A DNA stretch of 34,775 bases from Clostridium sp. (GTDB lineage Bacteria; Bacteroidota; Bacteroidia; Bacteroidales; Muribaculaceae), in the NCBI GenBank assembly GCA_023666615.1, contig JAMPBQ010000015.1, positions 1 through 34,775 on the forward strand, written 5' to 3'. Numbering within the stretch: position 1 is the first letter of the stretch; each line of letters begins with the position of its first letter. The notes beneath the pieces were generated by a model that was not told where the DNA came from, did no database searches, and was given only the letters and a program-made list of their open reading frames with translations. Below, in pieces: positions 9,130-24,869 of the stretch. A program made the translations under genes and the position numbers.

Positions 9130-11196
9130 CTAATCCTCCACCTGATACCGATACAAAGCAAATGTATTCTCCCCCGGCAGTCTCACCGTCAAGCTTCCGC
9201 CTTCCCCGAGAACCACCATCTCTTCTCGCCCATATCCAAGCACAGGCGTTAGCCTTACATTCGCTCCCTCATTCAGATATGTCCTTATCTTCCCAGTTTC
9301 ACCCTCAGTATCTTCCCTGAAAATCAGCAGGAAGCCCGCGTCATCTCCGGTTATGCTTTGGAATCCGGTCCATGATCTCCCGCTTGGCTCCTCGCCTATC
9401 GGCAGCACTGCCCCGCTGTGAAATTCATGCTGCACTTCCCGGTATGCCCTCACCAGCGGAGCTATCCCGAAAGCCTCTTCGGGCAGATTCGACGCCTCCA
9501 TCCATGCCAGCGGCTGTCCGGCCATCGTTATGGCGAAAAGGTAGTCAAATCCATATTGCCCCGGAGCAAACGGGTCGCCCTCGTCATATTTCTCCGCATT
9601 GCGCCACGGATTCAGAAATTCCACTTGCAGATTCTCCGCCGGCACGTATTTTACAAGCTGCCAAAGGTTGCGCAGCGTGTGGTAGGGGTAATAATTCCCC
9701 CAGTCGGTGTAGCGGTTTTCAAGGAAGATGTTGCCGTAGCGGTTGAAGAAATGGTATCCGCCCCTGCGCCCTGCCGTTGCGTCGAGGTTGAATACCGCCG
9801 AGTCGCCGGTCTCTTCCTGCACCCTGTCAAAGAGCTTGCGCAGGTTCGTCTCCGCCTTCTTCGTAGGTATGTTTAGCCCGTCGATCTTGAAGGTGCGTAT
9901 CCCGTATTCGCGGTAAAGCCCCGTCAAGGTGGCCGCATCCTTCTCCCAGTCGGCGAAGTCATCCTGCACGCTTGGGTTGAACCACAGGCCTATCTCTACG
10001 CCCAGCTCGCGCCCCCTGTCCACTATGGGCTTCAGCCCTCGCGGATATTTCGCCGCGTCAGGCACCCAGTAAGCTGAATCTCTCCAAATGTCCTTGAACG
10101 ACCCTTTGGCCACGGCCGAGTTGGGGCTCTTGCCCTTCTGCCACCCGTCATCGATCTGAAACAGCGATATGCCCAGCCTTCCGCAAAGTTCCAGCTCTTC
10201 AAGGCAAAATCTTTCGTTCACCTTTGCGTCTTGTGATCTGTCGCCCCACGTGTTCATCATCACCATCTCATCGCGCTCCGGCAGATGCCTGCGCAGCTTC
10301 TTTTGGTATGATCGCAGCGCCAAAAGCGCGTCTTTCTCGCTCCCGTCATGCACTCCAAGCACTGTGCTGTAAGCCGGCGTCCACTCATCTTCCTTCAGGT
10401 CGCTTGCCCTAAGTCCAAGCCCTGTCACTGCGAAATCCCCAAATTCAGCTATGAAGTCCGCATTGTCATATCCAAGCTGCACGCCGGAACATGGCGCTTC
10501 TTTCAGGAAAAAAAATCCAGCTCCGGGCCGGCGGCTGACCCCGTCTGTCGCCAACATCACGTTTCCGCGATAATTCGTGCGCCGGTATGCTATGGCTTCG
10601 CGCTCTGCCACCAGATTGTTGTTCCAGTCTGTTACATCCCAAAATTCAACGGCCTTCAGCCTCCAGTGCTTGCCTGCCAGGCTTAGCCTGTCTAGCACGG
10701 GCGTCACGGCCTTCACCTTCATCGCCTCGGCGCTCTCGATATTGCTGCGGTCAGCCGCATCCGCCGCGTCGGCATGCGCAAAGGCTCCGTTAAGATTGCC
10801 CTTGAGCCAGGTGTCGGTGGCTATGGCGGGAACGCCATCGTAGATGCGGTAGCGCCTGCGCACGTCCAGCCCTCCCAATGAATATTCAATGGTGGCCTCA
10901 AGCGTCTCGGGGGAAATCGACGTCTCTCCCACCATTTCAACCTTAAGTCGCCCTGCCCTACTCACGCTCTGCCGGTTCACCTGAAAATCAGGCGCCGAGC
11001 CCTTTGAATGCAGCTCTACGCCGGTAGCCTTATTCTCGATGCGCACTGTTTTCACATTGCCGCCGTTCCACAGCATCACGCGCTCTATGCGGTCGTTGCC
11101 CATGCGCAGCGTGTCGCCCTCAAGCCTGCAATAGCTCTCTCCATGCGCAGTGACGGCCACGGTTGCGGCCAATATCATTGAAAGGGTCTTATTCAT
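9130..11196 (-). CDS. GH36/clan GH-D alpha-galactosidase-like, exported
   Basis: A 688-aa protein with a signal peptide of about 19 residues. An N-terminal beta-supersandwich (about 20-290) precedes a TIM barrel (about 300-600) and a small C-terminal beta domain. Clan GH-D landmarks are FQIDDGWQ (346-353), IGLWFNPS (402-409), the nucleophile in FKIDG (D439) and the acid/base in RYTDWGNYYPYHTLRN (D498). The LWFNP and KID segments fit the retaining alpha-galactosidase mechanism, although substrates in this subgroup vary and alpha-N-acetylgalactosamine or arabinopyranose cannot be excluded. It follows the FAD oxidoreductase gene after 18 bp. An Ala/Asp-rich stretch (ADAADAAD, 141-149) lies in the N-terminal domain. 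Confidence 0.85.
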   Translation of the reverse strand: MNKTLSMILAATVAVTAHGESYCRLEGDTLRMGNDRIERVMLWNGGNVKTVRIENKATGVELHSKGSAPDFQVNRQSVSRAGRLKVEMVGETSISPETLEATIEYSLGGLDVRRRYRIYDGVPAIATDTWLKGNLNGAFAHADAADAADRSNIESAEAMKVKAVTPVLDRLSLAGKHWRLKAVEFWDVTDWNNNLVAEREAIAYRRTNYRGNVMLATDGVSRRPGAGFFFLKEAPCSGVQLGYDNADFIAEFGDFAVTGLGLRASDLKEDEWTPAYSTVLGVHDGSEKDALLALRSYQKKLRRHLPERDEMVMMNTWGDRSQDAKVNERFCLEELELCGRLGISLFQIDDGWQKGKSPNSAVAKGSFKDIWRDSAYWVPDAAKYPRGLKPIVDRGRELGVEIGLWFNPSVQDDFADWEKDAATLTGLYREYGIRTFKIDGLNIPTKKAETNLRKLFDRVQEETGDSAVFNLDATAGRRGGYHFFNRYGNIFLENRYTDWGNYYPYHTLRNLWQLVKYVPAENLQVEFLNPWRNAEKYDEGDPFAPGQYGFDYLFAITMAGQPLAWMEASNLPEEAFGIAPLVRAYREVQHEFHSGAVLPIGEEPSGRSWTGFQSITGDDAGFLLIFREDTEGETGKIRTYLNEGANVRLTPVLGYGREEMVVLGEGGSLTVRLPGENTFALYRYQVED

Positions 11197-11214: not shown

Positions 11215-13116
11215 TTAATAATCGTATGCTTCAGCGTCTGACTTGTAGAATATCCGCGGACGCTCCAAAAGTCTGTTGGCGCAGTTGAATCCCTGGTTGT
11301 CAGGCGCGTCTTTCCTTCCCACGCCTTCCGCCATAAGATCTTTCAGCTCAGCCAGCCGGTTTTGGTACACGCCCCGCGGCGTTTCGCCATGCTTTTTGCA
11401 TAGCGACGCGGCCATCCCCACTACCTCGCCCATCATGCCGGTGGTGCGCATCACCCTCACTGTGCCAAGGGCCACATGCGTCACGCTGATGTCGCGCCCC
11501 GCCATAAACAGGTTGTCCACATTCCTTGAATACAGGCAGCGGTAAGGCACCGCGCAAGGATAAATCCACCTATGCTTTGTAGCGGCCTTAAATTCTTGCC
11601 CCGGCCAGTTCGCGGAATTGAGCGAATCGGGAAAATGCAGGTCTATGGCCCACGATGCAGTAAAGGACGCGTCCTCATGCCGCATGTTTTTGTCTATGTC
11701 ATCCTGCTTCAGCACGTAGTCGCCCAAAAGGCGACGGCTCTCTCTCCTCCCCGCAATGTAGGCTGCCCAGTCCAATTCCCGGTTGGCCCAGCGATCGTTG
11801 TCTTTGAGGTCGTTCTTCAGAAAGCTCCAGTTGTTGAAGATCACCAGTAGGCCATAATCCCTAATGAGCTCTCCATCTTCGATTTGGTTAAAGTTCATGC
11901 CAGTCTCCCATTTCCATTCGCCCATGGTCACGCGCTCGCAGTTACCTTCGTTAAATTCCATTCCGTACTTGAATCGCGGAAATTTCGCCTTTTTGCCCAG
12001 GTCTTTGCTGTACCATTGCACCGAGGCGCCCATCACAAGCGAATCAGCCTTCTCTGGCGCAAGGCTTTCGCCATATTCGGCGCGGGCTTCCCGGCCCATC
12101 AGATAGTCGGCTCCCGCCAAATACCCAATTGTGCCGTCGCCTGTGCAGTCGGCGAATTGATCGCCATAAAGGCTTATCTCTCTCCCGTCCTCAATATGCT
12201 TTATCGTCACGGCCTTTATTCTATTCCCTTCTTTTTCCAGAGTTATTGCCCTGAAGGAGGGGTAAAGGTCTATGCGCTCTTCCGCCATTATGATGGAATC
12301 TTTGCGATTGTCCTCATATACCTCCGCCGGCTGGGCGTTGCCTGGCCGGCTATGCCCAAATTCTCGTATCAGGCGCCCCAGGCCCTCGTTGGGCCCAAGC
12401 CCTATGTGCCCGCCAAGATGCACGCGCACCTCAGCGCTGTTGTTGCCTCCAAGCACTGGCCGGTCGTTCACAAGCGCCACGTCGCAGCCAAGTCGCGCCG
12501 CCGATATCGCCGCGCACATCCCCGCTATGCCTCCGCCTATCACCACCAAGTCGTAATGTTTTTCTGATGCCGCGGGGCAGTCGGGCCAACTATTGAGCTG
12601 CCTACGCATCACGGCTAGCTCCATACCGCTCTCAGCCGGCGCCTTGCCCTCGGTTGTCAGGTATATGGCATCGCACCTCCCGTTGAATCCCGTCAGGTCA
12701 TGCAGCGCTATTTTCGTTTCCCCGGCCTTGAGCTTGGCTTCTCCGGCCTTCTGCCATTCCCAGCAATCGCCTTTGCAGCCCAACGTCTGCGGCAGCCTGC
12801 GCGTGCCGATCTTCACCTCAAAGCGCCCGGGGCCTTCTGCCTGGTCCCACGGTGAAGTCCAGTTGTAGGTGCGCGTCCACACGCTGTACGTCCCGTCCTC
12901 GGGTATGTCTATCGTTGTCGATGCGTCCTCTACTGGCTTGCCAAGGCCATGCGCCATCAGATAGGGAGACCCCATTTGGTCCACAAACTGTTGGTCTACT
13001 ACCCAGCCGCCCTTCTCGGCGAAGGCTTCGCACTCCACCATCAGCTCGGCGCATGGGGCCGCCAACGCGGTCCCCATGGCCATGCCGATTGTAAATATGG
13101 CTTTTGATATTTTCAT
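11215..13116 (-). CDS. Exported FAD-dependent oxidoreductase (FAD_oxidored type)
   Basis: A 633-aa protein with a Sec-type signal peptide (MKISKAIFTIGMAMGTALA). A beta-sandwich, carbohydrate-binding-like domain spans about 22-155. A PF12831-type FAD domain follows, with the dinucleotide-binding glycines in VVIGGGIAGMCAA (GGGIAG at 194-199), then LGGNNSAEVRVHLGG and DCTGDGTIGYLAGA. The start was chosen because its ATG overlaps the upstream stop codon as ATGA; a longer reading (start at 13143) would put charged MQNRRRDDK ahead of the signal peptide. Family members are often labelled xanthan lyase, with no firm activity. In this PUL it could oxidise a sugar to ready it for elimination or cleavage. 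No twin-arginine motif is seen, so FAD would have to be loaded after Sec export. Confidence 0.85.
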   Translation of the reverse strand: MKISKAIFTIGMAMGTALAAPCAELMVECEAFAEKGGWVVDQQFVDQMGSPYLMAHGLGKPVEDASTTIDIPEDGTYSVWTRTYNWTSPWDQAEGPGRFEVKIGTRRLPQTLGCKGDCWEWQKAGEAKLKAGETKIALHDLTGFNGRCDAIYLTTEGKAPAESGMELAVMRRQLNSWPDCPAASEKHYDLVVIGGGIAGMCAAISAARLGCDVALVNDRPVLGGNNSAEVRVHLGGHIGLGPNEGLGRLIREFGHSRPGNAQPAEVYEDNRKDSIIMAEERIDLYPSFRAITLEKEGNRIKAVTIKHIEDGREISLYGDQFADCTGDGTIGYLAGADYLMGREARAEYGESLAPEKADSLVMGASVQWYSKDLGKKAKFPRFKYGMEFNEGNCERVTMGEWKWETGMNFNQIEDGELIRDYGLLVIFNNWSFLKNDLKDNDRWANRELDWAAYIAGRRESRRLLGDYVLKQDDIDKNMRHEDASFTASWAIDLHFPDSLNSANWPGQEFKAATKHRWIYPCAVPYRCLYSRNVDNLFMAGRDISVTHVALGTVRVMRTTGMMGEVVGMAASLCKKHGETPRGVYQNRLAELKDLMAEGVGRKDAPDNQGFNCANRLLERPRIFYKSDAEAYDY

Positions 13117-14717
13117 CTTATCGTCACGTCTGCGATTTTGCACCAGCCTTCTTTCGTCAGGTTGTCAAACCTCGGCGACATGTTGATGCCTATGGCGTTG
13201 TCGCGGGTAGTGTCCACCAGGCCAACAGCCCATACGTAGTGCCCGGCCGCCACCGAAGGCACCTTCACCACGGAGTTGTAGGTCTTGGGCTTGTCCTTGA
13301 TCCACTCGTTGAGCTTGGTCTCTTCCACCACGGTCAGTCCCGCGGGCTTAAGCGTATTGGGGTCAAGTAGCGCGAACGCCACTCTGTATTTCTGATTCCA
13401 CTGCGGCAGGTTGGTTGGGCAATATCCCCATCCAAGGTTGTTCCACCTGTGTGTAATCTGCACGCTCTCTCCGGCCTTGGCCGTCGTCGGCACGGAAATC
13501 TTGTCGGCGTAGAGCCTATAGCCGCCCTCGGCTATGAATTCCTTCACCAGGTCAAAGCAATCATGGAACCACATCGCCGTCTCCCCATTCTTCAGGTCTG
13601 AGCTGTAGCGGAAGTCCATCATGTTCACGTTGGCGCCCTTGGCCTCAAGGTATTCGCCTCGGCGCACGTCTACCCAGTCCTTATAGTTGTCTTGGTTCAT
13701 CGGGCTGTTGCCGTGGCTCGAGCGCACCCAGCCGCCTTCCATGATAATCGGCCGGTCGTAGCGGTGGGCCGCCGCGTAGTTGCGCTCCCAGTCCTTGTAG
13801 TATTGCTTCATGCCGAATGCGTCGTGGCGCAGCGAGAACCCATGCTCTACGCAATAGTCCAGGTATTTCTCAGCCGATGCCGTGCTGGCGTTGCTGAAGT
13901 CATTCTTAGCCAAAATGCAGCGGTGGTAGTTGATAAACGTTGGTACCTTGGTGAAGAGTCTCTCCATTAGCGTCACTATCCACTCAAAGACTCCTTCGCG
14001 AGGGTCATCATTGCCCGTGGAATAGATTATTGTGTGGGTTTCTCCCCACATGCCAAGCCCAAAGCCGCTTACGTATGCCGTAACCTCAGGGTCGTTGTAT
14101 TTGGCCGCGAAGTCTGTGAGGAATTTCTCGTAGCACTTCTGGAATATCGGATCGTCTACGTATGGGCTCCACACCTGCACTGAGCCTGTGGTGGACCAGA
14201 ATCCAGCGCAGCCTTGCTCCTTCACGTAGTCGGGAGTGAAGTTATAGTGCTTGTCGCGTGAGTCCACAATGAACGTAAACGCCAGCTGCATGCCGCGCTC
14301 CTTGGCGCCTTCCACCAACATCTTGAATCGCTTCGCCGGCTTGGTGTCAAGGACGCCATCGTCCCAAACGTATTTGCCCTCTTCGGGGTTGAAGTCGCTC
14401 CATGCTCCGCGGATGTAGAGCGTATTCGAATATTCGCTCACCTTCACGTTGCCCTCGGGAGTCTGCATATTGTCATAATCGTCCCAAAAAGAATCCCGCA
14501 GGCCGTCGCCAAGCCCCGTGTAGGTGTTCCATCCGTTGATGGGGTTGCGTATGTAGGCCAAGCGCTCCGGTTTGAAGTCTACTATCGTGTTGCCCGAGAT
14601 ATCCCAATTGTTTTGCGAGGGATCAGCTGGGCCGTCATCGTCTGAGCATGACGCCATGGCCATCCCCAGAGACGCTATCATTGCGGCGGTGATGCCGCCG
14701 TGGATATATTTGTTCAT
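13113..14717 (-). CDS. DUF4874/DUF4832 lipoprotein, putative GH-A-like glycosidase
   Basis: A 534-aa lipoprotein with lipobox AMASC (C24) followed by SDDD, an acidic stretch typical of surface-exported Bacteroidota lipoproteins. Residues about 50-400 look like a TIM barrel (DUF4874-type N-terminal part) and about 405-534 like the DUF4832 Ig-like part. Blocks shared with the other DUF4832 protein of this locus are WGETH (E226), YHRC, LRHDAFGM, PIIMEGGW (E327), NMMDFR, EGGYRLY and RWNNLGWGYCPTN. Glutamates at the ends of two predicted strands fit a clan GH-A acid/base and nucleophile pair; this is my inference, as the family has no activity that I can name. The gene follows the SusE-like gene by 18 bp and overlaps the FAD gene by ATGA, so it is a core member of the operon. 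Confidence 0.85.
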   Translation of the reverse strand: MNKYIHGGITAAMIASLGMAMASCSDDDGPADPSQNNWDISGNTIVDFKPERLAYIRNPINGWNTYTGLGDGLRDSFWDDYDNMQTPEGNVKVSEYSNTLYIRGAWSDFNPEEGKYVWDDGVLDTKPAKRFKMLVEGAKERGMQLAFTFIVDSRDKHYNFTPDYVKEQGCAGFWSTTGSVQVWSPYVDDPIFQKCYEKFLTDFAAKYNDPEVTAYVSGFGLGMWGETHTIIYSTGNDDPREGVFEWIVTLMERLFTKVPTFINYHRCILAKNDFSNASTASAEKYLDYCVEHGFSLRHDAFGMKQYYKDWERNYAAAHRYDRPIIMEGGWVRSSHGNSPMNQDNYKDWVDVRRGEYLEAKGANVNMMDFRYSSDLKNGETAMWFHDCFDLVKEFIAEGGYRLYADKISVPTTAKAGESVQITHRWNNLGWGYCPTNLPQWNQKYRVAFALLDPNTLKPAGLTVVEETKLNEWIKDKPKTYNSVVKVPSVAAGHYVWAVGLVDTTRDNAIGINMSPRFDNLTKEGWCKIADVTIR

Positions 14718-14735
14718 TGTTTGTCGCTGTTTTAT

Positions 14736-16385
14736 TTATTTCACATCAAACACTACCGTTCCATTTTCTATGTCAAGCACCACGTAGTTGCAGCCCTCAG
14801 GTATCACGAAATAGGCATAGCGGTTGTCGCCCTGTCCGCCAAGTATTGGCATCGGCGAGCCAAGAGTGGCCGGAGTATACGTAGAGTGGTCGTTGCGCTT
14901 CGCGTCTGTGCCCGCCGCGCCGTAGCAATACACGTTGTTCTCAATATTGCTTACCATAAATTTCACCGTAGCCGCCACCGCCGCATTCTTGTTGTTGGCG
15001 TCATTGCCCGTCTCACGCGGCAAAGCTGTGCCCTTGTATGCGAATACCTTCGGATTCGCCAGGCTTTGCGTCAGCCTGTACTTGGCCTGGAAGCCTGCCT
15101 TCGATTGGTCGGCGTCGCGAGCAAAGTTGTTGTACGTGCCCCACATCCAAAGTTCGGTCACTTCTTGCTTGTACGGATTGATGCCCGCCACGGTATTGTT
15201 GTAGCTTACCTCTGCGTTCTTCAGGTCTGTTGCCGCCGAGCGGAAGGTCATGGTGCGGTTCTGCGTGTCAACCACCACGCGGTATATGCCATCAGCGGGA
15301 ATAGTCCAATAAGATGTCTTCGTGCCTGATTCTGTGCTCACTTGCGTAAATTCCATCGGCTCGCCGTCCGCTATTTCAGTCTTTCCCGCCTTGGGGGCAA
15401 GGCTCACAGCCGTATTCTCCTCAAAGCCTACGGGCAGCCAGAATGCGCCGGACTTAAGCTCGCCCTTCCAGGCGTATAGGTTCTCGTCCTCCAGCGTCTG
15501 CTCTATCTCTATCATATCGTCGCCGACTGCCGCGCCCGCCATGTACAGCTTGTCAAGCTCTAGCGTTGCGCCTGCGTCCACGATCTTCACAGTCTTCTTA
15601 TCAAGGTTGAGCGTGATGCGGTAGTTGCCCTCTTCCGGTATGTTCCAATAATGGGCCTCCGCCCTGTCCACGATCACGAAGGGCATCTCTTCCGCCGTGA
15701 TGTCGCGGTCTTCCCCTTCAGCCGGCGAGACAGCGTTGCTCTCATCAGCGTAAAGCACCGGGAAGTTGATCTTGCCCGCCTGCAGCTTGCCGTTGTATCG
15801 GTATATTTTCCCGTTGTTGGCATCTGCAGTCAGCTCTACGTCGCCATCTCCTGTGGCGTTTCCACCCATGAACAGCTGGTCTGCCAGGTACTGCTTCGGC
15901 CCGTAGGTCTTCACCCTTACTCGCAAGGTGGAAATGTCTGGCACCACGGTGCGAGGGCCCTGGAAGGTGGTGGTGAGGGTGAACCTCAGCTCGCCCACCA
16001 TGCTCGTGCCCTGCCCAAACTTGCCCACAAGCATCTCCTGCAGCTCGCGGTTTGTATAGGAGCGGTGGAAATTTCCGTCATCCTCGTATTCCTTTATGGC
16101 GTTGGCCTCGCTCCCTATAAGCTCGGTCTCCAGCTTGTAGGTGCATAGGAAGTCGTTGCCGTAGTCCGCCGCCGGCGTCCAGTCGATGCTCAATGCCTCG
16201 GCTTCGGGATTGGCCTCTGACAGCACTACGTACTCCTGCGACCCCGTCAGCTGCACTATTGAATTGTTGCGAGAGTATGAATTGTCTATGTCATCCTCTT
16301 GGCATGAAGCCAGGCCCCAGGCGAGAGCGATTCCCGCCAAGGCCGCATAGCTTCTGAATATATGGTTCTTCATCTTAAATTCCAT
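14736..16385 (-). CDS. SusE/SusF-like surface glycan-binding lipoprotein
   Basis: A 549-aa lipoprotein with lipobox GLASC (C28) followed by QEDD, a surface export signal. Residues about 40-165 match the SusE N-terminal Ig-like domain (EALSIDWTPA). Three tandem SusE/F-type binding modules follow: about 168-270 (DQLFMGGNATGDGDVEL..YWNIPEEGNYRITLNLDKKTVKI), 278-382 (DKLYMAGAAVGDD..YWTIPADGIYRVVVD) and 409-549 (ELWMWGTYNNF..YFVIPEGCNYVVLDIENGTVVFD). Such modules hold glycan at the cell surface beside SusCD. A second possible start (MKNHIF) lies four codons in and would give an equally good signal peptide. Its position directly after susD is typical. Confidence 0.92.
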   Translation of the reverse strand: MEFKMKNHIFRSYAALAGIALAWGLASCQEDDIDNSYSRNNSIVQLTGSQEYVVLSEANPEAEALSIDWTPAADYGNDFLCTYKLETELIGSEANAIKEYEDDGNFHRSYTNRELQEMLVGKFGQGTSMVGELRFTLTTTFQGPRTVVPDISTLRVRVKTYGPKQYLADQLFMGGNATGDGDVELTADANNGKIYRYNGKLQAGKINFPVLYADESNAVSPAEGEDRDITAEEMPFVIVDRAEAHYWNIPEEGNYRITLNLDKKTVKIVDAGATLELDKLYMAGAAVGDDMIEIEQTLEDENLYAWKGELKSGAFWLPVGFEENTAVSLAPKAGKTEIADGEPMEFTQVSTESGTKTSYWTIPADGIYRVVVDTQNRTMTFRSAATDLKNAEVSYNNTVAGINPYKQEVTELWMWGTYNNFARDADQSKAGFQAKYRLTQSLANPKVFAYKGTALPRETGNDANNKNAAVAATVKFMVSNIENNVYCYGAAGTDAKRNDHSTYTPATLGSPMPILGGQGDNRYAYFVIPEGCNYVVLDIENGTVVFDVK

Positions 16386-16407
16386 GATTTCTCAATGTTT
16401 GGGATAA

Positions 16408-18123
16408 TCAGTTTCTCAAATTGGGGTTTAGCTCAAAGTCATGCGTGGGCACCGGCCATGTGTATTGGCTTTCGGGGAATACGCGCTTGGCTCCCACCGC
16501 GATTGTGCCGGCGTTGAGCAGCGCGGAGAAGTCGGCCAGGCCGTCTTCGTCTATCTGCGGCGTGTGGCTCCAGAACCACAGATTCTTGTTCACCACCTTG
16601 TCAAGGCATTCGTCTGCCGGCAACATGATGTAGTTGTACCCGTTCAGGGCCTTCGTGGCCAGCTTCCAGCGGTAAAGGTCGGGCAGGCGAAGGGCCTCGT
16701 TGGCCAGCTCCACCCTGCGCTCCAGGCGCACTGCCCTGCGAAGGGTCTCGCGGTCGGACATCTTTACTGCCGGGTAAAGGTCTTCTGCCGTATAGGATAC
16801 GCCGTAGGCCCTGGCCCGCACCATGTTGATGGCGTTTATCACGCTGTCGTCAATCTTGTCCAGCTCTATCATTGCCTCGGCGTACATCAGCAGCACGTCG
16901 GCGTAACGCATCATCACGTAGTCGCGCTCCACCTTCTTGCCGTTCTCTGTCCAGCTAGCGTCAATGCCCTTCTTCCATATCAGGCCGTTGTATGAAGCGT
17001 ATTGGTTCACTTTGCGAGTATCCTGGTTGGCCTGCATCGCCCCGGTGTTGTAGTTCATAACCTTGGTGGCGGCCGGCGACGGGTCAAACTCAAATCCGCA
17101 ATGCACGGTGTTAAATTCCACAATTGTCATCGTGCAGCGCGGGTCGCGGTTTTCAAACGGCCTGCGAGGGTTGAAGAGCGGCGATTCGTCTATTGGAAGG
17201 CCGTCGGTGCATAGGTAGGCGGCCAAGAGGTCCCAAGAGGGGGTGTCGGCCGCATAGCCGCCGGCGTTGCGCGGAAGACCGTTGTTCACAAACCATTGGT
17301 CAAGTATCACGTCATTCTCCAGCGAGCGGGGAATGTAGAACACCTTTTCGTCATTCTCCTTCGTGCTCTGCAGGAACAGCTTCGCGTAGTCGGGCTCCAG
17401 CGAATAAATCTTCAGGTCCATGCACTGCTTGGCCGCCTCCGCCGCCAGCTCATAGTCCCCGAAATATAGCGCGTACCTGGCCTTCATCGCAAGGGCCCCG
17501 CCCTTGGTGATGTGCTTAGCCTTTGTGCCCCAGTCTGTGGGCAGCGACGCTATGGCCATGTCAAAGTCTTCGTACACATGCTTCACCACTTCAGCCTTGG
17601 GGGTGGGCGTCTGCGCCAGGGCCTCGCTGATGGTCAGGGAGTGGTCGTTGAAGGGAACGTCTCCAAAGTAGAACGCCAAGTCTCCGTATTTGCATGCCCT
17701 GCAGAAGTATGCCTCGGCGTTGAAGCGGTCCAGCGTCTCCTGGCTCACAGCCCCAAGGGCCTTGTGGCTGTTCTCCAGCATGGAGTTGGCGCGCGCTATC
17801 AGCTTGTAGCTTTGCTGCCATAGGGCGTAAACCTCCCATTGGTTGCCGGTCATTGTGCCGTCCAAAAGCGTGCCGTTGCTCCCGGGGTTGCGGTTCTGGT
17901 TGCGGTATGTGAAGTTGTCGGTCCACTGCTCTGACGATTCCAGCGGCTCTTTCCAATAGCCAAGTATGTAGAATTCATTCACGGCCATCTGCAGCTCTGT
18001 CTCGTTTGAGTACCAAGATTCGCTGTTGCCCTGCGCCTTAGGCACCATGTCCATGTCCTCGCATGAGGTCATCGTTGCGCCAAGAGCCGCGCAGGCTGAT
18101 ATGATTGTGATTATTTTTTTCAT
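16408..18123 (-). CDS. SusD-like outer-membrane glycan-binding lipoprotein
   Basis: A 571-aa protein with signal peptide MKKIITIISACAALGATMTS and lipid-modified C21, then EDMD. Typical SusD/RagB content follows: an N-terminal helical TPR-like region (about 40-330; YWKEPLESSEQW, RANSMLEN, EAYFCRACKYGDLAFYFGDVPF) and a C-terminal RagB/SusD region (about 330-571) with DPRCTMT, DYVMMRYADVLLMYAEAMIELD and the closing NPNLRN. It forms the lid of the SusCD transporter and captures the target glycan. Its gene follows susC after 18 bp. The specific glycan cannot be predicted from the sequence alone. Confidence 0.96.
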   Translation of the reverse strand: MKKIITIISACAALGATMTSCEDMDMVPKAQGNSESWYSNETELQMAVNEFYILGYWKEPLESSEQWTDNFTYRNQNRNPGSNGTLLDGTMTGNQWEVYALWQQSYKLIARANSMLENSHKALGAVSQETLDRFNAEAYFCRACKYGDLAFYFGDVPFNDHSLTISEALAQTPTPKAEVVKHVYEDFDMAIASLPTDWGTKAKHITKGGALAMKARYALYFGDYELAAEAAKQCMDLKIYSLEPDYAKLFLQSTKENDEKVFYIPRSLENDVILDQWFVNNGLPRNAGGYAADTPSWDLLAAYLCTDGLPIDESPLFNPRRPFENRDPRCTMTIVEFNTVHCGFEFDPSPAATKVMNYNTGAMQANQDTRKVNQYASYNGLIWKKGIDASWTENGKKVERDYVMMRYADVLLMYAEAMIELDKIDDSVINAINMVRARAYGVSYTAEDLYPAVKMSDRETLRRAVRLERRVELANEALRLPDLYRWKLATKALNGYNYIMLPADECLDKVVNKNLWFWSHTPQIDEDGLADFSALLNAGTIAVGAKRVFPESQYTWPVPTHDFELNPNLRN

Positions 18124-18141
18124 CGCTGTTTGTTTCCTTGC

Positions 18142-21100
18142 TTAGAGGTTAATATTGATGCCGCAGATCAGCGACTTGGTTATCGGGTATGCGCTCACGC
18201 CCATTTCGGGATCCCACCCGTCGGGATAGTGGTCGATCGAAAATAGGTCGTTGGCGCTGAAGTAGATGCGGCATGACCGCACGCCGATCTTGCCCATCCA
18301 TTTCGCGGGCAGCGTGTAGCCCAGCGTCACGTTCTTCAAGCGGAAGTATGAGCCATCGAACATCCAAAAGTCCGACACCGCATAGTTGTTGCCTTTCGTG
18401 GTGTTGGTTAGGCGAGGATACTTGGCCGCGGCGTTCTCCGCGTCTGTATTGAACACGCTCCAATAGTTGCCGTCAAGGATTGCCGGTATGTTGCCATAGT
18501 TGTCCCTGAGAGCCTCTACCATGGCGCGGTCGTAATAGACCTTCTGCTTGCCGATGCCCTGGAATGCGAGGCTCAGGTCGATGCCTTTCCACGATGCGTG
18601 CAGGTTGCCGCCGTATTGGAACCGCGGCAGCGAGTTGCCAAGCACTACGCGGTCGTATTCCGCCGAGATGATGCCGTCGGGTACTCCGTCCGGACCGGAA
18701 ATGTCGCGGTATTTCAAGTCGCCGACAGTCACGGTGTTGTTCAGCCTTGCCGAGTTCTTCACCTCGTCCTGCGTCTGGTAAATGCCGTCGCAAATGTAGC
18801 CGTACCATGCGTTGAAGTATTCTCCCGCGCGCTTGATTTTGCCGCCGCTTATTTGGTCTGCGTCATTCAGGTAGTCCACCTTGCTCTTGAAGTCGCTCAC
18901 ATTCACCGACAGGCCATAATTCACGTTTCCGACCTTGTCGTTCCACGACAGCTCCACGTCCCAGCCTGTCGTCTTCATGCGTCCGGCGTTGGTCGACGGA
19001 TTCGAATATCCCATCGTGTAGGGTATCTCTATGTTCAGGAGCATGTCGCGCGTAGTCTTCCAGTAGTAGTCGCCGGTGAAGCGCAGCCGCGAGTTGAACA
19101 GCGCCAGGTCTACGCCGATGTCGGTCGATTCGGTTGTCTCCCAGGTGATGTCCTGCACGGCCAATGTGCGGATGGCCGCGGTCTTGTCGCTCACTATCAC
19201 GCCGTTCTCATAAAAGTAAGAGTCTCCGAAGGTGATTAGCGACATGAAGGGGAAGTAGTTGCTGCCGATGCGCTCGTTGCCCAGGCGTCCCCAGCTGGCG
19301 CGGATCTTGCCGAAGTTCAGCGCGCTCCCGGCCAAGGCCTCTTTCAGGAATTTCTCTTCCGTCACTACCCAGCCCGCCGAGAAGGACGGGAATGTGCCCC
19401 AGCGGTATTTCTTGTGGAATCTCGACGATCCGTCCCTGCGCACGTTGGCCTGCAGCAGGTAGCGTCCGTCATAGTTGTAGAGCAGGCGTCCGAAATATGA
19501 GTTGGACGAATATTCCGACCCTGTGCCGTTGTTGTCCTTGAAGTCCTCCGGTCCGATGTTCAGATAGGGATAGTTGGTCAGCTCGTACTGGTCGCGCGCG
19601 GCCCCGAGGCTTTCGGTGCGCATGATGTAGTATTCGTAGCCGAGCATCAATGTCAAGTCGTGCTTGCCGAAGCTCTTCATGTAGTTGGCTATTACCTGCG
19701 ATGTGATGTGCCAGTTGTCGTTGCGCGTCTCTGACAGCTTGTTGGTGGCCCACGATGATCCGCTGCCTTCCATCCAGCCGCCGAATACCATTGGATCGTC
19801 AGCTATCGTGTAGCTCACGGCCTTGCGAAACGACTTGCCTTTCGTGTAGTTAATGAAGGGGGATACGATGCCTTGCAGCTGAAATCCGTCAAAGGGCTTG
19901 AACGTCAGCGCGGCCTTGCCTCCTACCTGAGTTGACCATGATTTCGAGATGCCGCCCTCTTTCAGCAGCGCGTACGGATTGGCGCCGTTCTTGCCCTCGG
20001 CCATGCGCCCGTCGTCCCACACTGCGGGGTAGATCGCCGGCATCTTGCGCATGTCGGAAAAGGGTGAGTAGATGGTGCTCACGCTTTTGGCCCTGCGCAC
20101 GTTCACATCCACCGTCAGCCCAATCATCTTATGCACGTTGATGTCGGTGTTCGACCGAAACATAAAGCGGTTGAAGTTGCGTCCTTCATACAGGCCGTCC
20201 ACCTTGTCATATGACATTGACACGTTGGTACGCACTGTCTTGTTGCCGCCGCTCACGCTCACGGTGTGCGTCATGCGCGGCGCCGAGTCCTTCATCATCA
20301 TCCCCTTCCAGTCGGTGATGGGGTAATTGTTTGGATCTGTGGCGTTGTTGCTCACCCAGTTCTTGATTTGGTCTGATGTGTATTGCTGGAAGTATCCGCC
20401 TGCCGGATTGTCGTTGTACAACAGTTCGTTATACATCTCCAGGTAGCGCGTCACGCCCACCATCGAGGGCTGCGCCGTGGGTATCTCCCACCCAAATTCA
20501 CCCTGGTAGCTGAGCTTGAGCTCGGTCTCGCTGCCGCGCTTGGTGGTGATGAGGATCACGCCGGCCGCGGCCTTCGATCCGTAGATTGACGAGGATGCCG
20601 CATCCTTTAGCACCGACACGCTCTCCACGTCATTGGGGTTTACATAGTCTATGTTGTCGCACTGCACTCCATCAACGATAATCAGCGGCGAGGAGTCGCC
20701 AATGGTGGTAACGCCGCGCACGTGCATGCTTCCGGCCGACGCACCCGGCGCGCTGTTGTCCCTGCGCACCATCAGGCCGGAAACCGACCCCTGCAGCGCC
20801 GTGGAAAGCGTCGTGGTCTTCTTGGCGGCCAAGTCTTCGCCCTTCACCGCGGCCACCGCCCCGGTGAGGTCTTTTTTCTTCACTGTGCCGTAGCCGATGA
20901 CCACAACTTCATTCAGCACGTTCTCGTTCTCCGACATAGTTATGTCCATGCCTCCGGCCTTGGCGTCGATTTCCTTCGGGCTGTATCCGATATAGCTCAC
21001 CTCCAGCTTCTGCCCGGGCTTGGCCATTAGCGTGAAGTTGCCGTCAATGTCAGTCAGAACGCCTTCCGCGTTGCCCTTCAATTTCACCGACGCGCCAATC

Positions 21101-21531
21101 AGAGGCTCGCCGGTCTCGTCTGTCACCATGCCGGTTATTTCCTTCACCTCTCCTTTACTGGCGTTTTCACCGCCTTCTTTCGCTCCTTTGGGTGCTATCG
21201 TCACCTGCCTCCCCGCTATCTTATAGGTTAACCCTGCCTTTGAGCACATGTCGGCTATCAGGGCGTCTATGGATTTCCCGTTCAAGTCTACATCGACCTT
21301 CTTGCCCAGCTGGCTGTTGGCTTCGTCTGAATAGACGAATACATAGTCGCTGTGGCTCTCAATGTAAGAGAGCACCTCCTTCACGGTGGAGCCGCTGCTC
21401 TTCATCGAGTAAAGTCCCGAGGCCGGGTCTTGGCTGAGCGTTGTGGCGGCTTGAGCCTGCATTCCGGCTCCCATAGCCCAACATAGGCTGATGGCGCCGA
21501 TGCCCAATGCTCGTTTCAATGTTTTCTGCAT
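18142..21531 (-). CDS. SusC-like TonB-dependent transporter with STN signalling domain
   Basis: A 1129-aa outer-membrane transporter. The signal peptide covers about 1-28. An STN (secretin/TonB N-terminal) domain spans about 44-114 (VKEVLSYIESHSDYVFVYSDE..VDVDLNGKSIDALIADM). A CarboxypepD_reg-like extension spans about 131-197 (ITGMVTDETGEPLIGASVKLKG). The plug starts at NEVVVIGYGTVKKKDLTGAV (about 207-226), and a 22-strand-type barrel fills the rest, ending in LICGININL. It imports oligosaccharides using TonB energy with SusD as lid. The STN domain is typical of transporters that signal to a FecR-type anti-sigma factor, and such a pair is encoded just upstream, which supports a sigma-relay circuit for this PUL. 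Confidence 0.96.
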   Translation of the reverse strand: MQKTLKRALGIGAISLCWAMGAGMQAQAATTLSQDPASGLYSMKSSGSTVKEVLSYIESHSDYVFVYSDEANSQLGKKVDVDLNGKSIDALIADMCSKAGLTYKIAGRQVTIAPKGAKEGGENASKGEVKEITGMVTDETGEPLIGASVKLKGNAEGVLTDIDGNFTLMAKPGQKLEVSYIGYSPKEIDAKAGGMDITMSENENVLNEVVVIGYGTVKKKDLTGAVAAVKGEDLAAKKTTTLSTALQGSVSGLMVRRDNSAPGASAGSMHVRGVTTIGDSSPLIIVDGVQCDNIDYVNPNDVESVSVLKDAASSSIYGSKAAAGVILITTKRGSETELKLSYQGEFGWEIPTAQPSMVGVTRYLEMYNELLYNDNPAGGYFQQYTSDQIKNWVSNNATDPNNYPITDWKGMMMKDSAPRMTHTVSVSGGNKTVRTNVSMSYDKVDGLYEGRNFNRFMFRSNTDINVHKMIGLTVDVNVRRAKSVSTIYSPFSDMRKMPAIYPAVWDDGRMAEGKNGANPYALLKEGGISKSWSTQVGGKAALTFKPFDGFQLQGIVSPFINYTKGKSFRKAVSYTIADDPMVFGGWMEGSGSSWATNKLSETRNDNWHITSQVIANYMKSFGKHDLTLMLGYEYYIMRTESLGAARDQYELTNYPYLNIGPEDFKDNNGTGSEYSSNSYFGRLLYNYDGRYLLQANVRRDGSSRFHKKYRWGTFPSFSAGWVVTEEKFLKEALAGSALNFGKIRASWGRLGNERIGSNYFPFMSLITFGDSYFYENGVIVSDKTAAIRTLAVQDITWETTESTDIGVDLALFNSRLRFTGDYYWKTTRDMLLNIEIPYTMGYSNPSTNAGRMKTTGWDVELSWNDKVGNVNYGLSVNVSDFKSKVDYLNDADQISGGKIKRAGEYFNAWYGYICDGIYQTQDEVKNSARLNNTVTVGDLKYRDISGPDGVPDGIISAEYDRVVLGNSLPRFQYGGNLHASWKGIDLSLAFQGIGKQKVYYDRAMVEALRDNYGNIPAILDGNYWSVFNTDAENAAAKYPRLTNTTKGNNYAVSDFWMFDGSYFRLKNVTLGYTLPAKWMGKIGVRSCRIYFSANDLFSIDHYPDGWDPEMGVSAYPITKSLICGININL

Positions 21532-21566
21532 GTGTTGTGATATTTTTGGTTTTTATTATTTGTTTC

Positions 21567-23093
21567 TCAATCTATTTCCACATCCGATACGCGCAGCCAG
21601 CCATCCTCTGTCAGAAGATTCGCGTCTACCGCCATCTCAATGGCCGGCATCTCGCCGCCGGTCGCGTCCACCAAGGCCACTGCCCATGTGTATTTCCCTT
21701 TAGTCAGCCCTTGCGTGGAGATTTCTGTGGTGTATTCTGTCTCCGCCTCGCGCAGCCACTTGCTAAGGTCGGTCTTATCGTCAACCCATATCTTGGAGGC
21801 ATTTCCGCTGGCGTCCAGCAGGGCTATCCCCACTTTGTAGCGCTGTTCCATCTGCGGCACGTTGGTCGGGCAGTACCCCCACCCCATATTGGCCCAGCGG
21901 TGCGATACTTTTGCGCTCTCGCCCGCATTAACCTTGTCGGGCGCCGAAATTGATACGGGATACAGCCTATAACCGCCTTCTTTTATGAATTTGCGCACCA
22001 ATGGCATCGAGGTCCCGAACCATGACCGCACTTCGTCGTTGATGCGGAAGTCCATCATGTTCACCCTTGCCTCAGCTGATGCTTCATATTCTCCCTTGCG
22101 CACGTCCTCTGAGTGCCCTTCACGGTATAGCCCCGAGGGGTCCCTCCAATATCTGTGGTGTGCCCCGGTGATCCACCCGCCTTCCATTATTATGGGGCGG
22201 CGGAATCTCCAGCGATTCGCCATTTCCTTTTCCCAATCCTGATAGTAGCCGTGCATGCCAAAAGCGTCATGCCGCAATATGTAGCCATAATCGGCCGCCT
22301 TCTCTATTATGGCCTCTGACGAGGGCGTGGGCTCGCCCCAGCCTTCATGCGTTGGGTCGCCTATGCAACGATGGTAGTGTATCGCCAGCGGCACTTTCTT
22401 GAAGGCCTTTGTGTATAAGTCCATAACCCAGTCAAACACCTCCATCTTATTCTCCGCGTTTTCGTATATCATTGAGTGGCTTTCTCCCCATTTGCCCAGC
22501 GAGTAGGCGTCAATGAAGCATACTCTCTCCGGATCGTCATATTCCTGCGCGAAGGCCTTGATGAATTTTGAGAATTTCTCCTGAAACACTTTGTCGTCAG
22601 GATAAGGCGAGGGATTCTGCCCCGGCGCAGCCTTGGGGTCGTCATAGTATTTAGCCCCGGCGTCGAACACGTATTGCGGCGTGTTCTTCCCCTGGTCGCG
22701 GCCGTCAACCACAATTCTGAACGCTATGCGCAGCCCCCTGTCGTTTACGCTCTTTATCAGCCTTGAAAGCCGCGAGTTGGGGTCATTCCATGCGTATTTC
22801 CCCTCTTCGGGCTCAAATGAGCTCCACGAGGTGCGCAGATACGCGCAGGTCGCGTAGTCGGATACGCGCACAGTGTCGCCGTCCGATGTGGGCATTCGGT
22901 CATAGCCCTGCTCTTCCCAAAAGTTTTCGTCGTATGTCCTGCCCAGATACATCACCCAACCCTGCATGGGATTGCGCAGCACTCGCGCGGTGTCGGGCGC
23001 GAACTTCACCTCTATGTCTTTGCCTTCGGCCGAGGCCGAGGCCCCGGCCATCATTGCCAATGTAAGCGATAAGATTGTCGTTTTAATTTTCAC
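21567..23093 (-). CDS. Secreted DUF4874/DUF4832 protein, putative GH-A-like glycosidase
   Basis: A 508-aa protein and paralogue of the lipoprotein DUF4832 protein further down the operon. It has an ordinary signal peptide (MKIKTTILSLTLAMMAGASASA, no lipobox cysteine), so it is probably periplasmic or released. Conserved blocks are RNPMQGW (40-46), SSFEPEEGKYAW, WGESHS (E204), IHYHRC, ILRHDAFGM, PIIMEGGW (E304), NMMDFRIN, EGGYRLY and HRWANMGWGYCPTN, then a C-terminal Ig-like domain with KYTWAVALVD. E204 and E304 are the candidate catalytic pair (inferred). It lies between fecR and susC, 35 bp ahead of susC, and is the first structural gene of the PUL, an unusual place for an enzyme. Confidence 0.85.
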   Translation of the reverse strand: MKIKTTILSLTLAMMAGASASAEGKDIEVKFAPDTARVLRNPMQGWVMYLGRTYDENFWEEQGYDRMPTSDGDTVRVSDYATCAYLRTSWSSFEPEEGKYAWNDPNSRLSRLIKSVNDRGLRIAFRIVVDGRDQGKNTPQYVFDAGAKYYDDPKAAPGQNPSPYPDDKVFQEKFSKFIKAFAQEYDDPERVCFIDAYSLGKWGESHSMIYENAENKMEVFDWVMDLYTKAFKKVPLAIHYHRCIGDPTHEGWGEPTPSSEAIIEKAADYGYILRHDAFGMHGYYQDWEKEMANRWRFRRPIIMEGGWITGAHHRYWRDPSGLYREGHSEDVRKGEYEASAEARVNMMDFRINDEVRSWFGTSMPLVRKFIKEGGYRLYPVSISAPDKVNAGESAKVSHRWANMGWGYCPTNVPQMEQRYKVGIALLDASGNASKIWVDDKTDLSKWLREAETEYTTEISTQGLTKGKYTWAVALVDATGGEMPAIEMAVDANLLTEDGWLRVSDVEID

Positions 23094-23264: not shown

Positions 23265-24206
23265 TTATTTGGTGGCGGTTAGATTATAGGCTGTGCTGTC
23301 GGGCGACGCCTCTACATCCATTGGCAATATGTTGGAGAGTGTGATGAGCACTCCGTCTATATCGCTCTTCAGCTCCAGGCTGCCGTATAGCCGGCTGTCC
23401 CAAAGTCCGGGGTCTATGTTGATGTCCACTCCATAATGGTCGCTCAGGTGCCTGGCTATGTCGCCAAGGGTTTGTCCGTCCAGTGTCAGCACCCCGCGCG
23501 TCCAGGAGGTGTAAAATTCTGTATTGACCTTTGTCACAGAGGCTATGAAGCCGTCTTCTATCTCCGCCTTCTGGCCGGGCTTGAGCTTTACGCGCTCCTC
23601 GCCATCGCCGCTGCTCACCGCCACGCTGCCTTCTACAAGCACCACCGATGTGGCCAGCGAATCAAAGGTGTTGATGCAAAATGTCGTGCCCAGAACCTGC
23701 AGGTCAAATCCCTTGCTCTGCACCACAAAGGGATGGTCGGCGTCTTTGGCCACTTCAAAGTACACCTCGCCTTCGGCGTACACGTGCCGCACTCCTCCCG
23801 TGAATTGCTGCGGGTATCTTACCGTCGAGCGCGAGTTGGCGATTACCTTGGTGCCGTCGGCCAAAATCAATGTTGAGGTCTGGCCCACCGGCACGCTGAA
23901 TTGCAGATAGTCTTCTGTAGACAGCTCATTCGACGCCAGCATCCGGCTTGCGGCCTCCGATGGCGATTCCGCGTCGCGCCATATAAAGAATCCAACTATT
24001 ATAGCCACGCAGGCTGCCGCTGAGAGCGCCGACATCCACGCCGCGCGGTGATGCCTCTTTATGCGCATGTTCTCCCGGGCGATCTTTGCCCGTGTGAGCT
24101 GCTTCACTCTTTCGGGGTCTACCGGCGGAAGCTCGGCTATCTCAAGAAAACGCTCTACGGCGTCCTCTGAAACGTTTGGATTTATATGTCGCGGTTCTTT
24201 TTCCAT
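23265..24206 (-). CDS. FecR-family anti-sigma factor
   Basis: A 313-aa protein. A cytoplasmic N-terminal segment (1-56) ends in a basic stretch (RIKRHHRAAW). A single transmembrane helix spans about 57-76 (WMSALSAAACVAIIVGFFIW), followed by a periplasmic FecR domain (about 105-225; VPVGQTSTLILADGTKVIANSRSTVRYP, VYAEGEVYFEVAKDADHPFVVQS, VLGTTFCINTF) and a C-terminal DUF4974-like segment (about 230-313; LTLDGQTLGDIARHLSDHYGVDI). It should hold the neighbouring ECF sigma factor and release it on a signal from the STN domain of SusC. It is encoded 72 bp after the sigma gene. Confidence 0.95.
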   Translation of the reverse strand: MEKEPRHINPNVSEDAVERFLEIAELPPVDPERVKQLTRAKIARENMRIKRHHRAAWMSALSAAACVAIIVGFFIWRDAESPSEAASRMLASNELSTEDYLQFSVPVGQTSTLILADGTKVIANSRSTVRYPQQFTGGVRHVYAEGEVYFEVAKDADHPFVVQSKGFDLQVLGTTFCINTFDSLATSVVLVEGSVAVSSGDGEERVKLKPGQKAEIEDGFIASVTKVNTEFYTSWTRGVLTLDGQTLGDIARHLSDHYGVDINIDPGLWDSRLYGSLELKSDIDGVLITLSNILPMDVEASPDSTAYNLTATK

Positions 24207-24278: not shown

Positions 24279-24869
24279 CTAAAATAGGAAAAAATTCATT
24301 GCCAACAGCAATACCAGCGCTTTTTCACCCCCTCCGGGCTTCAGGGCTTTCTTCAGTTTGTCCATCGCGTAAGCCACATGGTAGTTCACCGTCGGCAAGG
24401 TTATGCCCAGCATTTCAGTAATCTGCTTGTATGGCACCTTGTCTATTTTCGCCAAGTAGAACACATGCTTGCATTTCTCGGGCAGCGATTCTATGGCCTT
24501 GTTCAAGTTGTCTTGCTCTTCTTTGCTTATGATTGTTTCGTCCGGCGCCCCTACCGGCGCTATGGTAAACATCTCCACATCGTCAAGGCTCACCCTCGTC
24601 GGCTCCGTGCTTTCATGCCTTAGCATGCTCACAGCCTTTCGGTACGTCACAGTCCGCAGCCATTGCCCTATGCTCTCTATCTCCAACAGTTCTTTGCGGT
24701 GCTTCCACGCTTCAAAAAACACATCGCTCACCACTTCCTCGGCGCTCTCCTTGCTCCCCACTATTCCATAAGCGTAATAGTAGAGGCGCTGAGTCCATTC
24801 GTCCATAAACTGGTTGAACGCACGCTCATTGCCCTTGCTTATCTTGTAAAGGATATTTTCAAAACTCAT
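24279..24869 (-). CDS. ECF RNA polymerase sigma factor (sigma-70 family)
   Basis: A 196-aa sigma factor with region 2 at about 12-85 (AFNQFMDEWTQRLYYYAYGIVGSKESAEEVVSDVFFEAW) and region 4 at about 118-175 (LPEKCKHVFYLAKIDKVPYKQITEMLGITLPTVNYHV). It belongs with the FecI-like sigma factors that activate Bacteroidota PULs. The C-terminus is unusual: after a GGG stretch (179-181) the last 14 residues (EKALVLLLAMNFFL and F) are almost all hydrophobic. Related Bacteroidota ECF factors can carry such tails, which may bury against the anti-sigma factor or the membrane. It is the first gene of the regulatory pair. Confidence 0.95.
   Translation of the reverse strand: MSFENILYKISKGNERAFNQFMDEWTQRLYYYAYGIVGSKESAEEVVSDVFFEAWKHRKELLEIESIGQWLRTVTYRKAVSMLRHESTEPTRVSLDDVEMFTIAPVGAPDETIISKEEQDNLNKAIESLPEKCKHVFYLAKIDKVPYKQITEMLGITLPTVNYHVAYAMDKLKKALKPGGGEKALVLLLAMNFFLF

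Follow-up and report, generated by a model that had tools for sequence, protein, structure and literature searches.

Two DUF4832-like proteins flanking SusCDE as candidate depolymerases of a conserved gut Bacteroidota operon

How is a glycan opened by an operon that encodes uptake, esterases and exo-enzymes, but in which no enzyme for opening the polymer is recognised? An operon of this kind is conserved in gut Bacteroidota, and the question is raised here by the copy on contig JAMPBQ010000015.1 (assembly GCA_023666615.1, Muribaculaceae). The window, that is, the whole stretch of DNA analysed, is this entire contig of 34,775 bases, and it belongs to a 2.87 Mb assembly with a completeness of 94.6%. 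Two paralogous genes flank the SusC, SusD and SusE genes of the operon: D1 (21567..23093), which encodes protein P0002, and D2 (13113..14717), which encodes protein P0001. Both are on the minus strand, as are all the other genes named below. On the sequence evidence, the two proteins are best read as a pair of glycosidases that would use two invariant glutamates, while their placement in clan GH-A (a clan of glycoside hydrolase, or GH, families) appears half supported. The chances are about even that they are glycoside hydrolases of the DUF4832 superfamily that act as the depolymerases of the operon.

Both open reading frames (ORFs) are present on the minus strand, and the plus-strand translations are interrupted by stops. 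A first-pass annotation of this DNA had listed five motifs as common to the two proteins, and each of them, WGE(T/S)H, YHRC, LRHDAFGM, PIIMEGGW and NMMDFR, is found in D1 and in D2. The proteins are 40% identical over 498 amino acids (BLASTP, E 3e-130) and have 15 6-letter words in common, where 200 shuffles gave 0.015 on average, so their similarity is not due to chance. The spacing of about 100 residues between the WGE and MEGGW glutamates also holds, as E204 and E304 are 100 residues apart in D1, and E226 and E327 are 101 apart in D2. Computed from the gene starts, the codons lie at 22482..22484 for D1 E204 (in WGESH) and 22182..22184 for D1 E304 (in PIIMEGGW), the proposed second catalytic carboxylate, and at 14040..14042 for D2 E226 (in WGETH) and 13737..13739 for D2 E327 (in PIIMEGGW). 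The pair flanks SusC, SusD and SusE at distances of 35 and 18 bases, and no further copy was found in the 2.87 Mb assembly at E 0.001.

Relatives were collected by scanning GTDB contigs. Of 325 pattern matches, 255 were relatives, and the best 80 of these were retained, making up 78 loci. In these loci, 121 ORFs were nearest to P0001 or P0002. Five were dropped for length, and the other 116, together with the two window proteins, form a 118-sequence alignment. The 78 loci are the best-scoring ones, and the conservation counts thus cover the nearer family members. The family alignment that had been proposed as a check found both glutamates kept in 118 of 118 members, and the invariant positions (numbered as in D1) include W202, G203, E204, H206, H241, G279, M280, E304, G305, G306, R332, E335, D348 and R350. 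Both glutamate motifs are also found in the five ORFs dropped for length and in locus L070, where the ORF step had given no copy, and the spacing between the glutamates ranges across the family from 98 to 128 residues, with a median of 101. Among 295 genomes surveyed within the order, 13 match P0002 at E 0.001, a count that takes in distant DUF4832 proteins, and five of these (the window's own among them) have a match below 1e-80. Across the phylum, P0001 was matched in four of 296 genomes, in three of them distantly only.

This conservation bears on the idea that D1 and D2 are non-catalytic glycan-binding proteins of the surface and the periplasm that have kept a barrel scaffold. SusE-like proteins in the same place are binders, and the lipoprotein of the pair adjoins SusCDE, as this idea would have it. 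Nevertheless, both glutamates and many other residues are invariant in the 118 sequences, unlike the drift expected of a binder, and activity has been reported for a DUF4832 protein (PMC12345266). A binding role without catalysis thus appears very improbable.

The first-pass annotation had also proposed that one copy is a surface lipoprotein and the other periplasmic, and, as judged by sequence patterns, this arrangement recurs in orthologous operons. D2 has a lipobox with Cys24 (codon 14646..14648, computed from the gene start), followed by the acidic, surface-export-like signal CSDDD; in Bacteroidota, surface export is signalled by acidic residues that follow the lipoprotein cysteine. D1, which starts at a GTG, has a signal-peptide-like N-terminus without a lipobox and is predicted to be periplasmic. 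In the sampled loci, copies were assigned to slots by the next same-strand gene within 400 bases, the D2 slot lying between SusE and the oxidoreductase and the D1 slot between FecR and SusC. Lipoprotein state was called by a pattern that allows Gly at position -3, and the window proteins are included in the counts. All 12 proteins of the D2 slot are lipoproteins; ten of them start with CSD and more acidic residues, and the others are those of L042 (CSSDK) and L096 (CSCST). In the D1 slot, 13 of 15 lack a lipobox, while in L045 and L068 there may be one around residue 50. The 118 rows were also placed in a tree (short search, Shimodaira-Hasegawa-like approximate likelihood ratio support, long-branch warnings for three rows). 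Once the 91 rows in neither slot are omitted, a single branch (support 95) parts the D1 from the D2 slot. A 13-row clade (support 99), that of P0001, holds 11 of the 12 D2-slot proteins, and L096 lies elsewhere. Such a surface/periplasm pairing, repeated across orthologous operons with each copy in its own paralogue group, is new here, as is the finding, described below, of no recognised endo-acting enzyme among the ORFs classified. Two to four DUF4832-like paralogues occur within one region in L062, L039, L051 and L041, which suggests diversified cleavage specificity.

The assignment of the pair to DUF4832 at first pass stood in one part and fell in another. As matches to the Pfam model, both proteins are sub-threshold: PF16116 (DUF4832) scores 21.2 and 23.6 bits for the pair, the curated cut-off being 29.2, and covers the C-terminal part only, while NCBIfam gives no match at E 0.001 for P0001 or P0002. 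The full proteins do, however, profile-align with proteins that pass the cut-off. Of 40 family members scanned from the 118, DUF4832 was matched in 38 and Glyco_hydro_42 in five, at E 1 or better, and DUF4874 in one, at E 0.16. Weak matches to a pullulanase X25 domain were also seen in ten of these 40 (best E 0.00053), and would suit a carbohydrate-binding-like C-terminal domain.

In profile-profile comparison, the family and eight DUF4832 relatives align at 99.9% over 466 columns; E204 is matched to the WGE of these relatives, and E304 to their second glutamate. Seven of the eight are over the Pfam DUF4832 cut-off, and the eighth (L027) was not scanned. These eight, in turn, reach 98.1% over 265 columns against five strong DUF4832 proteins (138-244 bits), and both glutamates are aligned again. 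In distant members, the second glutamate was placed by profile alignment; plain MAFFT misaligned that residue. A direct comparison of the family with the five strongest DUF4832 proteins matches the C-terminal domain only (76.6%). Because the full-length link runs through the eight relatives and the direct match is confined to the C-terminal domain, D1 and D2 are, as judged from these profiles, members of the wider DUF4832 superfamily, but of a separate subfamily within it.

The first-pass annotation had called the pair undescribed, which was too strong. In 2025, purified SIR_1591 of Streptococcus intermedius, a DUF4832 protein with a predicted TIM barrel, was reported to be an active glycoside hydrolase that disperses Pel aggregates, and its model is described as resembling beta-amylases and beta-galactosidases (PMC12345266). 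In two other papers, DUF4832 genes are described as adjoining pel clusters in streptococci and clostridia (PMC7112168), and a cellulosomal DUF4874-DUF4832-dockerin protein is listed (PMC7480376). By its description, SIR_1591 is like the pair in having a TIM barrel (its residues 60-350) followed by a DUF4832 beta-domain, in similar length and order, and in being extracellular. Unlike D1 and D2, it is found, as that description has it, in a Gram-positive organism and in the setting of Pel biosynthesis, not in a SusCD operon. No paper on the SusCD-linked subfamily was found in literature searches, from whose scope subscription papers and CAZy were left out. The pair is likely to represent a new subfamily within a glycosidase family that has been little described.

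What, then, is the fold that carries the two glutamates? The profile of the 118-sequence family matches GH42 at 90.0% and GH35 at 91.1% in profile-profile comparison, as against 28% for GH5, 3.8% for GH13 and 2.3% for GH18, with five reversed-profile controls at 1.5% or less. With a wider DUF4832 profile of 20 sequences, the values are 97.5% for GH42 and 94.5% for GH35, and the first half of the barrel alone gives 93.6% for GH42, 93.3% for GH35, 56.8% for GH5 and 6.4% for GH18. Ten proteins, namely eight distant relatives and two family members, were scanned for Pfam Glyco_hydro_42, and seven of them reach its cut-off, over the first third of the model; one was sub-threshold and two had no match. 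P0002 itself scores 15.7 bits, where the cut-off is 21. In the alignments of the family, the wider set, the combined set and a two-sequence subgroup, E204 falls on the glutamate of the GH42 NE motif, that is, its acid/base glutamate, and in the combined set it falls on that of GH35 as well. The pair is thus like the GH42 beta-galactosidases in the first half of the predicted barrel and in the position of the acid/base. Searches of PDB sequences gave nothing credible, the best values being E 0.034 with P0002 and 0.8 with the family profile.

Several observations weigh against the reading of D1 and D2 as depolymerizing glycosidases of this fold. The true GH-A family GH2, represented by relatives of P0009 only, scored just 3.5% with the whole barrel and 8.2% with its first half, while GH13, a control from outside the clan, reached up to 18.3% with that first half; consequently, the profile method lacks sensitivity and its specificity is imperfect. 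For the half of the barrel that contains E304, the values were 0.2-3.0% against GH42, GH35, GH5 and GH2. The five strong DUF4832 proteins alone stayed below 4% with GH42 and GH35, in addition to the direct match with the family being limited to the C-terminal domain, as described above. Furthermore, the family-only alignment to GH35 puts WGE off the GH35 NE, and, for the eight relatives alone, the alignment with GH42 ends before WGE. The likeness to SIR_1591 is one of description, and the section that describes it (PMC12345266) names no catalytic residues. Lipoprotein state changes at least 15 times over the full tree, so location is labile outside this operon type, and endo action is drawn from gene content. 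Finally, the residue before the acid/base is Gly203 in 118 of 118 sequences, not the Asn of NE.

This last point bears on the clan, which had been proposed at first pass. In clan GH-A, an Asn immediately precedes the acid/base glutamate, and the invariant Gly203 therefore counts against filing the pair in the clan as defined. Moreover, E304, which follows a hydrophobic run and is invariant in the 118, lies in the half of the barrel that matches none of the families compared. In GH42, roughly 170 residues separate the catalytic glutamates, which is far more than the 98-128 of the D family. What stands of the clan claim is thus an N-terminal barrel half like those of GH42 and GH35 with E204 on the GH42 acid/base, and what falls is the NE signature; for the E304 half, the comparison gave no match either way. 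Nevertheless, it is quite probable that D1 and D2 are glycoside hydrolases that use these two glutamates.

The glycine would also be compatible with another sugar at the site of cleavage, or with an inverting mechanism. The latter would correspond to use of the strand 4 and strand 7 glutamates as in the beta-amylases of GH14, on an alpha-linked glycan that contains, for instance, galactosamine or galactose. Pel is an alpha-1,4-galactosaminan, and the operon has a GH36-like enzyme. In addition, ten of the 78 neighbourhoods contain a family whose representative exceeds the NCBIfam cut-off for a retaining alpha-galactosidase of the GH97 type. The reported dispersal of Pel aggregates by SIR_1591 and the reported beta-amylase-like aspect of its model (PMC12345266) would also agree with such a mechanism. 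By contrast, a search for GH14 members gave only weak partial matches, in six of 395 genomes, which offers no genuine set to compare, and inverting and retaining enzymes are indistinguishable from sequence. An inverting mechanism of this type is unlikely.

Whether a glycosidase pair would cut the backbone depends on what else the operon encodes. Upstream of D1 lie an FecR-like anti-sigma regulator (23265..24206; 60.4 bits to the FecR model, below its cut-off) and an extracytoplasmic function-type sigma factor (24279..24869), named by reading and adjoining FecR in other loci too. Between D1 and D2 are a SusC-like TonB-dependent transporter (18142..21531) and a SusD-like lipoprotein (16408..18123), both assigned to their families by reading the sequence and with relatives in other loci, and a SusE-like surface glycan-binding protein (14736..16385; PF14292, 42 bits). 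Downstream of D2 follow a flavin adenine dinucleotide (FAD)-dependent oxidoreductase (11215..13143; PF12831), a GH36-like predicted exo-glycosidase of the alpha-galactosidase type (9130..11196; Melibiase, 28.4 bits), an acetyl-xylan-esterase-like protein (7731..9026; AXE1) and, from family scans, a GH2 exo-enzyme like beta-glucuronidases and beta-galacturonidases (5936..7744), a DUF4886 domain fused to GH3 (2930..5908) and a GH3 with a PA14 insert (362..2815). The DUF4886-GH3 fusion is found as separate ORFs in L264 and L267, which lie downstream of the L062 and L063 operons. Counted from its GTG, the oxidoreductase ORF shares 31 bases with D2; nine codons further on, an in-frame ATG is judged the likelier start. 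The oxidoreductase is a steady partner of the DUF4832 pair, and its solved relatives match around the FAD-binding motif only. Near the contig end (31545-34749), a UmuC/DinB-like polymerase and an IstB/DnaC-like ATPase were named by reading only.

Relatives of the window proteins were counted by BLASTP among the 78 loci, many of which end at a contig end or at the 10 kb flank. The D family was found in 77, SusC in 50, SusE in 45, SusD in 39 and GH2 in 33, with weak relatives included for SusC, SusD and SusE. The oxidoreductase follows with 26, the DUF4886-GH3 protein or its parts with 25, FecR with 24, the sigma factor with 23, the GH36-like enzyme with 22 and GH3 with 19. Longer downstream regions were obtained from 11 of the 12 genomes reached. 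In these, the GH36-like gene is present in 11 of 11 and the esterase in eight of 11, followed by GH2 and GH3-type genes. Six of the 11 have a second GH2-like ORF, and the three scanned are GalB-like, just under the model cut-off or further. Another sigma-FecR-SusC-SusD set follows in L268 and L271, and such a set is interposed in L273.

No recognised endo-enzyme was found among the scanned operon genes of the window or the classified ORFs of the 11 longer regions, in which ten ORFs were scanned against Pfam and the rest were either assigned from their likeness to window proteins or not assigned. The other glycosidases of the operon (GH36-like, GH2 and GH3) are exo-type by family, in agreement with the first-pass annotation and with the exo habit of these families, and the same holds for the ORFs classified in the 11 longer regions. 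Given that D1 and D2 are glycoside hydrolases, this gene content makes endo-acting cleavage of the backbone somewhat more probable than another mode of action.

The same fold and glutamates might instead serve an exo-acting or debranching enzyme, the backbone being cut by another, unrecognised protein or being short enough for import. GH42 and GH35, the nearest profile relatives of the pair, are mostly exo-acting beta-galactosidases, and the presence of up to four copies in one region (L062) would suit several linkages. Set against this, a surface-type lipoprotein in all 12 D2 slots better suits a first endo cut, and the ORFs classified in the 11 longer regions offer no other endo candidate. 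Exo action by the pair is rather unlikely on these grounds.

Another possibility is that the chain is cleaved by the oxidoreductase or by the beta-helix protein P0014 (25118..26554), encoded just upstream of the sigma factor, and that D1 and D2 only trim. Beta-helix folds include polysaccharide lyases, and the oxidoreductase, whose cluster is present in 24 of the 78 loci by neighbour clustering, is without an assigned role; indeed, we know of no role in glycan breakdown for an FAD-dependent oxidoreductase of this kind. Yet P0014 has generic beta-helix and PMP-type repeat matches in Pfam, a weak tail of the type IX secretion system type, a best solved relative at E 0.011, and relatives (28-32%) in six of the 78 loci. 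As a backbone cutter it was set aside for its generic matches and its few relatives, and cleavage by either of these proteins is extremely improbable.

As for the substrate, the neighbouring enzymes suggest a glycan that would contain galactose in both alpha and beta linkage, together with uronic acid and acetyl groups. Elsewhere among the loci, neighbour families judged by one representative each include GH97 (10 loci), GH88 (two families, in 8 and 6), a glucuronyl-esterase-like family (7) and the C-terminal part of GH35 (13). Among proteins of solved structure, the GH2 protein is very closely related to 6d8k (895 bits), with a further match to the beta-galacturonidase 7vqm (498 bits); consequently, galacturonic acid is as possible as glucuronic acid. 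Glucuronoxylomannan was considered as a substrate and discarded, since nothing was found in the literature to support it.

Under the favoured reading of D1 and D2 as the depolymerases of the operon, each protein would consist of a (beta/alpha)8 barrel (about residues 60-370), related to GH42 and GH35 in its first half, and a C-terminal beta-sandwich (about 371-508), with bounds set by analogy with SIR_1591. At the end of strand 4, the WGE glutamate (E204 in D1, E226 in D2) would act as general acid/base, with the EGGW glutamate (E304 and E327) as its putative partner carboxylate. The surface lipoprotein D2 would make the first cuts in the polymer, SusCDE would import its fragments, and periplasmic D1 would cut them further. 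The exo-acting GH36-like, GH2 and GH3 enzymes, together with the predicted esterases, would then finish the breakdown. In this scheme, we infer hydrolysis, endo action, the order of attack and the role of E304 from sequence and genomic context. A broader proposal can be put forward only tentatively, as it falls short of an even chance. In it, the pair would found a new family of glycosidases, marked by an acid/base strand with an unusual 'GE'. The two ancient paralogues would be split between the outer surface and the periplasm and would be the only depolymerase of an operon, widespread in Bacteroides, Prevotella/Segatella and Muribaculaceae but unassigned, whose substrate would be an acetylated glycan containing uronate and galactose.

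With two candidate depolymerases and two testable residues in each, the substrate of this operon becomes findable. If the favoured reading of D1 and D2 is true, it would also give a function to part of DUF4832, a family that spans from gut commensals to Pel-making streptococci.

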